Shown here piece by piece: positions 15,796 to 25,209 of a DNA stretch of 32,171 nucleotides; position 1 is the stretch's first letter, and each line of letters begins with the position of its first letter. The stretch lies in assembly GCA_025352825.1 (NCBI GenBank), contig JANXSG010000247.1, positions 1 through 32,171 on the forward strand, in the 5' to 3' direction. Source of the DNA: Chthonomonadaceae bacterium (GTDB lineage: Bacteria; Armatimonadota; Chthonomonadetes; Chthonomonadales; Chthonomonadaceae). The notes under the pieces were generated by a model. The model ran no database searches, was not told where the DNA came from, and saw only the letters and a list, made by a program, of their open reading frames with translations. Made by a program: the position numbers and the translations under genes.

Positions 15796-15913
15796 CAAGC
15801 AGGACGTCAGGAACAAAGGATGATAGGAAAGCGTGAATAAAAACTGCATAAAGAAAATTAATTTTAATTTATAATTCTGTTCCTAGTTTCCTTTGTTCAT
15901 GCCTTCCTGCTTG
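15796..15913. repeat. Inverted-repeat element at the broken end of the vWA gene
   Basis: 15796-15820 and 15889-15913 are inverted copies matching at 21 of 25 positions, starting CAAGCAGGA and ending TCCTGCTTG, with a 68-base AT-rich centre. Its right edge coincides with the point where recognisable vWA-protein sequence begins, so it probably inserted into that gene and removed or displaced its start. Confidence 0.65.
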
Positions 15914-16868
15914 AATCATTTGGGGCGCGACCCTCAAATCTGGAATTTAGCCTGCGATTCCCTCATCAACAGCTGGCTGATCGAGATAGGGGTTGGTCGA
16001 CTGCCAACGGTGGGACTTCTATACGACCCTCGTTTACAGGGAATATCTGCAGAGGCAGTATACGATCTGCTTGTTTTAGACCCTCGCCGATGTAAGAGCT
16101 TACGCGGTTTCCGAGGTAAATTGGGCGACATACTCATGGACATTCCTGGGCGGATGATCTATCGAGCAGACGTGACCACAATTGATGATATTGTACGCCG
16201 TTGTATGGCTGCAGGATTATCTTCTTCCTCCCGTGGAACAGTTCCAGCCGGGCTGATTGAGGAGGTCAATTCACTCTTCACTCCGCCTGTACCCTGGGAT
16301 GTCGACCTGGCACGATGGATGGAAGCTCATGTTTCTGTACTTCGAGAGAAACAGCTAACTTATGCACGGGCGAGCCGCCGCCAATCTTCCACTCCAGACA
16401 TTCCTCGAGCTGCCAGATATGTACCGCAGGAGAACAGAGATGCGTGTACCTTCGGAGTTGTTCTTGACACTTCGGGATCTATGGACAGAGAACTGCTTGG
16501 GCGTGCACTGGGCGCTATCGCTTCGTATTCCGAAGCCCGCGTAGTTCCTGCGGTTCGGCTTGTACTGTGTGACGCTGCTCCTTACGATCAGGGATTTGTG
16601 GAGCCCACTGCACTGCGGGGTCTCTTCCCTGTGAAAGGCCGCGGAGGTACCGTGCTACAGCCTGCCATCAACTATCTGCTGACTCGTGCGGATTTCCCAC
16701 CAAGTGCGCCGCTCATGATTATCACCGATGGCTGGTGCGAGGAAAATGCTGTCAGTTCCGAGAGATCACTGTTTTCTCTTGCCACGTAAAAGGTTGAAGG
16801 AAGGGGCCGTACCGCTGCAAAACAGCGCACCGATTTTTCGAGTTCTGAAAGAGTCACATCTCGAGTAG
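15893..16868 (+). pseudogene. vWA / DUF2201-type protein, 5'-truncated and frameshifted
   Basis: Remnant of a protein joining a zincin-like metallopeptidase N-domain (DUF2201) to a vWA-like domain, often found beside a MoxR ATPase. Clear family pieces are IWNLACDSLINSWL, SSSSRGTVPAGLIEEV, TYARASRRQSSTPDIPRAAR, the metal-site motif VVLDTSGSMD, GRGGTVLQPAINYL and LMIITDGWCE. The expected N-terminus with HExxH is missing: the frame starts inside an inverted-repeat element. At the 3' end the frame reads out to a stop at 16787-16789, but the family ending VPRDHCFLLPRKRL continues in another frame from about 16755 to TAG 16866-16868. Two lesions make this a pseudogene. Confidence 0.75.
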
Positions 16869-22499: not shown

Positions 22500-23243
22500 C
22501 TATGTCAATCCCGATGCAGATCTATGAATCACATCAAGTGTATTCTCCACGATGGCGATATCCGGATGGTCAGTAGGCAAAAGTCGTCGTAGGATGGCAA
22601 GCGATTCGTTGGCAAGCGGTTCAGCTTCGGCATATCTACCGAGATGGAAATAAAGCAGGGCTAAATCGTGCAGTGTAACTGCAGTTAACTGATGTTCCTT
22701 ACCAATAGTTTTCAGCTCGATCGCGAGTGCATCTTGGTATAGCGGTTCAGCTAATTCATATTTCCGCCGTCTTGAATACAACTGCGCCAGATCGTGAAGT
22801 GTCATTGCAGTATCTGGGTGGTTATGCCCTAATATTTTGTCATTGAGATCGACGACTTCTAAATACATCTTTTCAGCTTCAGTGTATTTTCCTTGTAGGG
22901 AGTATGATTGCGCTAATGCGTTGACAGTCTCTAAAGTTTCGGAGTTTTCTCTGCCTCTAAGTTTGATTTTAATAGAAAGAGACTCCAGATAGAGTGCATC
23001 GGCGCCCGAGAAGTTGCCCTGCTTTAAAGAGATAGTTGCTAGATCTTGCATTGCAGCGGCAGTATCAAGATGTTCCTTTCCCAATACATCCGTAAGGGAG
23101 CTCAATGCCTCTAAATAGAGTTGTTCAGCTTTCTGAAAATGTCCAATCGAAAAATACAACTGCGCGATTTGGCTAATCAAATATGTTTCATCAAGACGAT
23201 TGTGGAGGTCTACGGGCAACTCTCGAAGTTGTTCAAGCAGCAT
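22500..23243 (-). CDS. TPR part of an iSTAND-TPR protein
   Basis: A 247-residue helical protein of kinesin-light-chain-type tetratricopeptide repeats. Four to five 42-residue units are visible, each with AE-x-LY-x-EAL, a LG-x-x-HP-x-T turn and an A-x-x-LA-x-x-Y helix (for example GHNHPDTAMTLHDLAQLYSR). Such arrays bind peptides or partner proteins and sense signals in STAND systems. The frame is continuous with the upstream gene except for one TAA directly before this ATG, so it is probably the C-terminal half of a single protein. Separate translation from the TAA-ATG junction is possible. Confidence 0.8.
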   Translation of the reverse strand: MLLEQLRELPVDLHNRLDETYLISQIAQLYFSIGHFQKAEQLYLEALSSLTDVLGKEHLDTAAAMQDLATISLKQGNFSGADALYLESLSIKIKLRGRENSETLETVNALAQSYSLQGKYTEAEKMYLEVVDLNDKILGHNHPDTAMTLHDLAQLYSRRRKYELAEPLYQDALAIELKTIGKEHQLTAVTLHDLALLYFHLGRYAEAEPLANESLAILRRLLPTDHPDIAIVENTLDVIHRSASGLT

Positions 23244-23840
23244 TTAAAGCTCGTTCAGGCGCTGTTGTTTATCTTCCAATGCCAAACCCGATACAGCAGA
23301 AAACCCGAGTGATTGAATGGTAACAGCAGAGGATAGATCATCTGCATTGGAGGGTGTAAAAATGTAGATGCCGCTGCGAACGGAGGCGAAGTCGGGTGCA
23401 CTGCCGATGATTTGGCTGAGCATATATTCAGGCATCCAGAAGACAAGTGGACAAGGGCAGTCTTTGATGAAATGATTCCGAGCCGCGTTCAGGTTCAGGA
23501 GAAATGGGATAGTGCGAGGTTTGGAATCACTGCGTATCCAGTTCTCCAAGCCATAAACGAACACTGCATCGGGCAAGGGAGCTTCAAGAACCGTGCGAAG
23601 GAGATAAGAGAGATGTGGAATCTCTTCGCGAACCGGGACATCCTGAATTCTGAGTTCTGGGACTTCCTCTCGCAGCGCTTTCATTTGCCGGTCTCGCTCA
23701 TCCGCCGAGTTACACAGCGCGAAAACTAGCGAGAATCCTTTAGCGTAACGTAATTCACGAGTTAAAGTAGCCCGTTGTTCATCGTTCTCGGGAAGAGGAC
23801 CATTGAATATATCGTAGAGTTCTGAGGAGTCATCATTCAT
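23244..23840 (-). CDS. P-loop-less STAND (iSTAND-like) domain protein
   Basis: A 198-residue protein that resembles the N-terminal NTPase-like domain normally fused to TPRs. Segments are GFSLVFALCNSADERDRQM, where a Walker A loop would be expected but is absent; AVFVYGLENW in the Walker B position; and LNLNAARNHFIKDCPCPLVF followed by WMPEYMLSQI, a highly characteristic block of this group. It should act by protein contact rather than ATP hydrolysis. Its start overlaps the previous gene's end by four bases (ATGA). It ends RLNEL-TAA, and the next codon in the same frame is the ATG of the TPR part; changing that stop to a sense codon would restore a 447-residue fusion. Confidence 0.7.
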   Translation of the reverse strand: MNDDSSELYDIFNGPLPENDEQRATLTRELRYAKGFSLVFALCNSADERDRQMKALREEVPELRIQDVPVREEIPHLSYLLRTVLEAPLPDAVFVYGLENWIRSDSKPRTIPFLLNLNAARNHFIKDCPCPLVFWMPEYMLSQIIGSAPDFASVRSGIYIFTPSNADDLSSAVTIQSLGFSAVSGLALEDKQQRLNEL

Positions 23841-24289
23841 GGCTTAATAGTTTGTTGCAGCGCTTTTACTGCACTTTTGAATTGCCGCAGTTCGCGAACA
23901 ATGGGATGTATTGCATACCAAGGCTCCGCAGCCTCAAAGACACTTTCATTTTCACCACCATTCATGTATTCAAGCACGCAGAGATTTTCCAGGAGTACTC
24001 GCCGATCCAAATCGTTACTATCCCAAGTCTTGTCCTTTGAGCGTTCGAGTTGCGCCAATAGCGGCCACTGGCTGGTTCGAATGGTGGTACTGTACGTCGT
24101 GACAGATTTCTGTATAGCTTTTTGTGCGGCTAGCAAACCTATAGGTGTGGTTTTCGTCTCTCGTGTTGTCTGTTGGACAAAAGTCATAAATTGCCTAACA
24201 TGTCCGCCACAGTAATTCAACAGAAAATCGAGTGCATCCTCATCAATCACCTCACGAATATTCTGCCTCTTAGCCCGCTTGAGAAGCAT
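23837..24289 (-). CDS. C-terminal part of the STAND-like ATPase (other frame)
   Basis: A 150-residue frame beginning MLLKRAKRQNIREVIDEDAL, followed by DFLLNYCGGHVRQFMTFVQQ, the helical lid typical after a STAND/AAA core, and a predicted winged-helix-like end with ENLCVLEYMNG and AIHPIVREL. It lacks its own nucleotide-binding site and fits directly onto the upstream ATPase if one A is added to the AAA run before its ATG (24289-24291 on the plus strand). It overlaps the upstream frame by 43 bases. It is best read as the second half of one broken or recoded gene covering 23837-25209. Confidence 0.75.
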   Translation of the reverse strand: MLLKRAKRQNIREVIDEDALDFLLNYCGGHVRQFMTFVQQTTRETKTTPIGLLAAQKAIQKSVTTYSTTIRTSQWPLLAQLERSKDKTWDSNDLDRRVLLENLCVLEYMNGGENESVFEAAEPWYAIHPIVRELRQFKSAVKALQQTIKP

Positions 24290-25209
24290 TTCAGTGGTTT
24301 GTCACGCCCTGGCTGGAAACGGAGATGATTTTCCCGTGTGAATGTTTTGACATTTGGAAGAATAAAAGGCTTACGTCCATATAGGGCTTCTAATTGAGGT
24401 TCAATAGAACGTACAAGTCCAAGTGGTATCGTATATATAATATTAGCACGCAGGGCATTAAGTTGAGTCGCACCATCTACAAAAAGTGCCCGCTCAGATT
24501 CGTCTCCCTGAGATTTCCCCGCTACCTGACGTATTCGTTCCATATTATCAACAATCAAAACTATATTATCATATTTTGGCCCACCATCTTGAGGATTGTG
24601 CATCGCCAACCGATTTCGTACATCAATCAGTAACGTGTTTATCTCACTGATTAACGATGGCATTTGTGGTTCGAGATGATTTCTAACTTCGGTGCGGGTT
24701 TTGCGGTCGGCCTGCTTAAGGCCAATTTCTACCTTTCCTTTCCAGAGTGGAATATCTATTTTTTTTACTTCCACATCACTAAAAAGCAAACTTCTAATTT
24801 CTTCCCAGCGCTTTTCAAAATAGCCTGCTTTGAGTCCAATACCTTCTTTCTCATGAAGTTCAGCAGAAATTTCCGCCACAATTGCATGCAGTATCTCCAA
24901 TAGCGAAGAGTCGAATACATCCAAATAATCCAGTACATTTATGACTATGGGAAAGTATCGTTTATGATAGCAATTAGGCCCGTGCCGAAGTAGTTCATGA
25001 GCTAAATGCTCTAGTTCAGACGATTTCCCGCTTCCCAGATGACCGGTAAACAGAGCAGTGATTGATTCTGTGGATTCATCAAAATCCTGGCAAATCTGCT
25101 GGATGAAAACATCCCCTCCACGCACATTTGTTAGGTCCACATACTGATCAGGTTCCGCCGGGAGGAGTGGATGGCAGGCGTTTAACAGTTGCTTAAGGAT
25201 CGCGTCCAT
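24247..25209 (-). CDS. STAND-like P-loop ATPase, N-terminal part
   Basis: 320 residues from the ATG at 25209. Opening NACHPLLPAEPDQYVDLTNV is typical of a group of cyanobacterial and soil-bacterial AAA/STAND ATPases. Walker A is FTGHLGSGKSSEL (G56-S63); Walker B is IVLIVDNME (D221, with N222 where an acidic residue is common). The tail after about residue 297 (PGRDKPLKCFSSG) is out-of-frame sequence caused by a one-base shift near 24290. It is expected to switch on ATP binding and pass the signal to the iSTAND-TPR protein encoded next. AAGGA before the ATG and an extended -10 upstream define the operon start; longer frames to 25521 cross that promoter. Confidence 0.8.
   Translation of the reverse strand: MDAILKQLLNACHPLLPAEPDQYVDLTNVRGGDVFIQQICQDFDESTESITALFTGHLGSGKSSELEHLAHELLRHGPNCYHKRYFPIVINVLDYLDVFDSSLLEILHAIVAEISAELHEKEGIGLKAGYFEKRWEEIRSLLFSDVEVKKIDIPLWKGKVEIGLKQADRKTRTEVRNHLEPQMPSLISEINTLLIDVRNRLAMHNPQDGGPKYDNIVLIVDNMERIRQVAGKSQGDESERALFVDGATQLNALRANIIYTIPLGLVRSIEPQLEALYGRKPFILPNVKTFTRENHLRFQPGRDKPLKCFSSGLRGRIFVR

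Follow-up and report, generated by a model that had tools for sequence, protein, structure and literature searches.

Probable recent inactivation of a conserved, NLR-like two-gene receptor operon in a Chthonomonadaceae genome

Results

Organization of the locus

We analyzed a 32,171-nucleotide stretch of DNA from a Chthonomonadaceae bacterium (here called the window), in which two adjacent minus-strand genes (25209-22500), gene A followed by gene B, are each interrupted once. They appear as four open reading frames (ORFs), at 25209-24247 (320 aa), 24289-23837 (150 aa), 23840-23244 (198 aa), and 23243-22500 (247 aa). A preliminary description of this DNA had reduced the four minus-strand frames to two ancestral genes, and this is correct in that the profile and alignments of the relatives cross both breaks. 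The ATGA overlap that joins genes A and B, which it had reported as intact, was confirmed in the sequence. The features of the operon are listed in Table 1.

Table 1. Features of the interrupted gene A-gene B operon
Feature	Position	Strand	Motifs or basis
Gene A 5' part, ATPase core	24307..25209	-	VRG motif at R30, Walker A G56-S63, Walker B ~D221, sensor-1 strand
Lesion 1, net one-base loss between gene A halves	24289..24301	-	Profile match split across two frames
Gene A 3' part, putative winged-helix-like and helical region	23837..24289	-	GG.VR and PWYA.HP.VREL motifs
Gene B 5' part, probable STAND-like (iSTAND-type) domain that lacks a P-loop	23244..23840	-	Motifs LNxxRN and APDF.S.RSG
Lesion 2, in-frame TAA	23244..23246	-	Sense codon in relatives (e.g., T, E, or R)
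Gene B 3' part, TPR solenoid of the kinesin-light-chain type, five or more repeats	22500..23243	-	Pfam, model, and PDB fold matches

Its two neighbors lie on the opposite strand: a PSD1 gene that diverges from the operon (from 25430) and a ceramidase-like gene that converges on it (to 22497). A defense island setting was considered and rejected because the neighbors of the operon are metabolic genes. A DUF2201_N metallopeptidase-like ORF at 15893-16789 lies several kilobases from the operon and is unlinked to it. The operon has a lower GC content than its surroundings, with a third-position GC of 0.35 to 0.48 versus 0.53 to 0.54 in the neighboring genes, as expected of an acquired cassette. 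PADLOC models gave only weak matches to the operon, and no effector domain or gene was recognized for it. The window genome has no second copy of gene A, a pattern scan of genome contigs found no close relatives of gene B, and a search with a gene A fragment found no viral carriers.

Gene A encodes a STAND-type ATPase

When rebuilt across its break, gene A encodes a P-loop STAND-type ATPase of about 450 aa. Its predicted protein carries both a Walker A motif (GHLGSGKS) and a Walker B motif of the form hhhhD(N/D)hE(K/R), as expected of a STAND NTPase. The Walker A glycines and lysine are conserved in 42 to 43 of 43 aligned relatives, which bears out the P-loop assigned to residues G56-S63 in the preliminary description. 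The VRG motif, a candidate for the N-terminal hhGRE-like motif of STAND NTPases, lies N-terminal of the P-loop, and its arginine is kept in 42/43 loci; past the ATPase core, a region with GG..R and PWY...P is also conserved. The 5' part of gene A is 34 to 41% identical to intact proteins of 457 to 509 aa, and the 3' part shares 32 to 45% identity with intact relatives over their C-terminal third and keeps the conserved columns. Pfam places the protein only as a distant AAA_16, NACHT, or KAP-like ATPase; its AAA_16 match is weak in the window (9.8e-4) and reaches 4.2e-12 in relatives. Across the strongly conserved columns, the window gene A keeps 26 of 29, the same number as an intact relative (L028), and neither gene A nor gene B has a lesion beyond its first.

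The break in gene A is a change of frame. The profile built from the relatives matches the gene in two abutting pieces, one covering profile positions 12-311 up to 24301 and the other covering 313-455 from 24298 onward in the -1 frame, one base out of register with the first. The upstream frame stays open to a TGA at 24249-24247, out of register past about 24301. A TGA at 24304-24302 closes the -1 frame upstream, which places the change of frame on the downstream side of this codon. Intact relatives read straight through the break point. A one-base shift in an A run had been proposed here; the profile frames uphold the shift, but the run has just three bases, forms no slippery heptamer, and does not allow the exact base to be placed.

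Gene B carries a P-loop-less domain and a TPR solenoid

The second break is a substitution-type change with no indel. Gene B aligns codon for codon with three relatives (L033, L030, and L032) across the TAA at 23246-23244, where they have a sense codon, in agreement with the earlier proposal that a single TAA breaks the second gene. An ATG follows directly at 23243-23241, where relatives carry other residues. The TAA sits where the STAND-like domain meets the linker to the TPRs.

No P-loop (GxxxxGK[ST]) follows strand 1 of the gene B domain in any of 44 sequences. Three residues of this domain (N118, R121, and D150) are invariant, and the window copy keeps 8/8 conserved columns. Outside the breaks, the conservation of both genes looks normal, in line with the constraint that had been suggested. 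Invariant arginines are present in both the gene A and the gene B proteins. No Pfam model recognizes the N-terminal domain of gene B, and a PDB sequence search with it returned no match. We took the fold from an alignment-based model (pLDDT of 86.5), as a model made without the alignment was poor. It predicts a five-strand alternating alpha/beta domain (residues 37-161) followed by an alpha solenoid (residues 188-442), the latter with a pLDDT of about 90 or above over most of its length. By hhalign, the gene B domain matched gene A weakly, over the Walker B and sensor-1 strands (P = 7.6e-4, probability of 25%). Based on the fold model, this weak match, and the position of the domain, we consider the N-terminal domain of gene B a probable inactive STAND-like domain. 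Of the Walker-less STAND domain described earlier, the lack of a P-loop is thus observed throughout, and the STAND nature is likely.

The C-terminal half of gene B has a TPR_12 Pfam match (E = 1.2e-48), and its best PDB fold matches are the TPRs of KLC1 and KLC2, as anticipated from its kinesin-light-chain-type repeats. All Foldseek/PDB fold matches fall in this half and do not bear on the STAND-like half. The TPR solenoid of the window gene B would bind a protein or peptide.

Genes A and B form a conserved pair with an exchangeable C terminus

We gathered 45 distinct loci with gene A, the window included. They lie in Armatimonadota and sparsely in other phyla, with further contigs labeled Poribacteria, Planctomycetaceae, Opitutales, Acidobacteria, Polyangiaceae, Dehalococcoidia, Aminicenantes, and Methanosarcinales. 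Within Armatimonadota itself the gene is sparse (23 of 291 genomes), and the closest relative of the window operon is just about 40% identical. Gene A is normally a single open frame, of 441 to 548 aa in most relatives. In 44/44 testable loci, gene B follows gene A immediately and in the same orientation, and the distance matrices of A and B correlate (rho of 0.65, with 0 of 500 shuffles as high), a correlation to which shared ancestry contributes.

The N-terminal domain of gene B is constant across loci, and its C terminus is exchangeable. We scanned the C termini of about 20 gene B proteins with Pfam and found TPRs in most loci, LRRs in two (L101 and L105), HEAT repeats with nSTAND1 in L041, nSTAND1 in L037, NB-ARC with an APAF-1 helical domain in L034, NACHT in L109, a metallophosphoesterase with an inactive REase and NACHT in L044, and Roc-COR in L096. 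Because a constant gene B domain is joined to swapped C termini, the pair probably acts like a split NLR receptor. Its domain arrangement is that of NLR-type receptors, but distributed over two chains, one for the switch and one for the sensor.

Six of these loci (L034, L041, L037, L109, L044, and L096) have the P-loop-less domain fused to a second complete switch, so that one operon can encode a STAND ATPase and another NTPase switch behind an inactive domain. In three others (L082, L106, and L092), C-terminal parts of gene B of 150 to 450 aa match no Pfam family and are possibly unrecognized sensor or effector modules. One genome (G036) has at least eight copies of gene A with varied partner C termini (L029, L037, L038, L041, L043, L044, and L109 among them), two of which are in tandem on a single contig (L037).

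Small lesions recur in operons of the same bacterial family

Neither break of the window is shared. None of the relatives is split at either point, which rules out conserved split points, and a broken gene B in the same bacterial family (L046, reverse strand, ~1670) is broken elsewhere, by a frameshift in the first TPR about 30 codons past the gene B break of the window. Two further operons of this family carry small lesions of other kinds: L032 has a TAG in gene A at 685-687 where relatives have Trp, and L010 (reverse strand) has a TAA and a TAG in gene B, at 2798 and 3554. Within the family, this amounts to 6 small lesions in 4 of about 10 operons. In loci outside the family, we saw no lesions within gene A and the STAND-like domain. 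Reassignment of the genetic code was rejected since TAA, TAG, and TGA all terminate genes in the window.

As a control, we used PSD1, a housekeeping-like gene that selection may constrain more strongly than it does accessory genes. The 24 PSD1 matches in the window's own genome are free of stops, and about 20 of them lie in open frames of 750 to 1,098 codons; the PSD1 matches listed for the same bacterial family, over 150 in number, are likewise all clean. Fisher tests gave an excess of lesions in the operons relative to PSD1 (P = 2e-5) and relative to the same genes outside the family (P = 0.01); these values are indicative only, as the counts are rough and the codon totals were estimated by hand.

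Discussion

We propose that the operon in the window belongs to a conserved, NLR-like two-gene receptor family and was inactivated recently, a reading that we consider probable. The system is most likely dead or dying. We infer that the breaks are genuine and, from the still-normal conservation of gene A, that inactivation would be recent; the few lesions so far would reflect too little time since then. Of the three explanations offered in the preliminary description (recent death, assembly error, or tuned expression), recent death is the best supported: the clean PSD1 matches speak against assembly error, and the different small lesions in three other operons of the family speak for a biological cause.

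STAND switches in general bind ATP and then assemble. In the mechanism that we envisage, gene A would supply the ATP-binding STAND switch, and gene B would supply a P-loop-less STAND-like partner that bears an exchangeable C-terminal module, here the TPR solenoid. Judging from the domain architecture, the A and B proteins of intact relatives most likely assemble through their STAND-like domains. A ligand on the repeat module of gene B would relieve the resting A-B complex, and ligand binding by the TPRs may then license ATP-dependent oligomerization of A and signaling. In the window, lesion 1 would part the ATPase core from the C-terminal regulatory part of gene A and lesion 2 would part the STAND-like domain from the TPR sensor, and both breaks together should abolish signaling.

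The main competitor is an artifact of assembly, sequencing, or strain mixture, in which one or both lesions would be false and both genes intact. The draft genome comprises 298 contigs, both genes are hit just once, by a minimal lesion, and are otherwise normally conserved, and the other broken members of the family likewise come from fragmented metagenome assemblies. However, a general assembly error is unlikely given 24 PSD1 matches of the same genome without a stop, and the long neighboring genes on the contig are open. Two lesions inside 1.1 kb would be an unusual local density of errors, and the second is of the substitution type rather than an indel. We therefore regard an artifact as unlikely, though the strongest of the alternatives. 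A smaller chance goes to the view that single mutations repeatedly switch off such modules in this bacterial family, in which variation between working and broken copies may itself be maintained, as for costly immune receptors; at its extreme, the four-fragment operon would still work as a split receptor.

The breaks could instead mark a functional split, with four cistrons translated separately by termination-reinitiation and the fragments reassembling. Every downstream fragment opens with an ATG at or inside the end of its upstream neighbor, which would allow restart at the 43-base overlap as well as at the TAAATG; the location of the TAA at a domain boundary and the apparently normal conservation would fit. 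Against this, none of the relatives is split in these places, and they do not share the ATG at which translation would restart. The second A fragment and the TPR fragment both lack a clear ribosome-binding site upstream, and the break in A cuts the ATPase core from the helical region that STAND switches need. We consider a functional split improbable, slightly more so than maintained variation. The least credible reading is programmed recoding, in which -1 slippage at the A run and stop readthrough would yield low levels of full-length proteins, and expression tuned in this way finds no support: the A run adjoins the frame change, but it has just three bases and there is no slippery heptamer, the relatives are continuous across the site, TAA serves as a normal stop codon for other genes in the window, and a conserved programmed mechanism is excluded, as far as the alignments go, because the lesions are not conserved in relatives.

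With recent inactivation as the preferred reading, the family is more interesting than the lesions, which are ordinary unless reads or sister strains differ. The intact family is apparently a widespread, little-described, and unnamed two-protein version of an NLR-type receptor. It places an ATP switch and its sensor-bearing inactive partner on separate genes and freely exchanges the sensor, which makes the intact pair a simple model for studying the communication between the two. The window copy is an example of the loss of such a system.

Several described systems share parts of this design. The iSTAND ternary systems (MoxR-vWA-iSTAND), a predicted conflict system of aggregating bacteria (PMC7159879, 2020), also have a catalytically inactive STAND domain, but we rejected this assignment because genes for the MoxR ATPase and the vWA protein are neither in nor next to the window operon. 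Bacterial NLRs such as Avs, bNACHT, and CARD-NLRs such as LypABC (PMC13236601) likewise combine a STAND ATPase with C-terminal TPR sensors. They differ in having switch and sensor in one chain, with effector domains or genes, whereas the window pair has switch and sensor on two proteins and no recognized effector. The closest published design, compared by description rather than by sequence, is nSTAND2 (PMC8195603, 2021, Figure 6C), a mobile two-gene operon of two STAND proteins, one of which has eroded NTP-binding motifs and is joined to variable C-terminal modules. Both proteins of nSTAND2 have a conserved arginine finger, and they show sequence kinship to Dap3, RNA12, and CR-ATPases (PMC8195603). 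The pair described here likewise has a predicted active STAND gene followed by a probable eroded STAND gene with a variable C terminus, in all of the testable loci, and it is at this level of design that the suggested kinship to predicted conflict systems is supported (PMC8195603). The modules differ: those of nSTAND2 are most commonly a GT4 glycosyltransferase or a HEPN RNase (PMC8195603), neither of which occurs in the gene B proteins that we scanned with Pfam, whereas gene B carries TPR, LRR, HEAT, NB-ARC, nSTAND1, NACHT, or Roc-COR modules.
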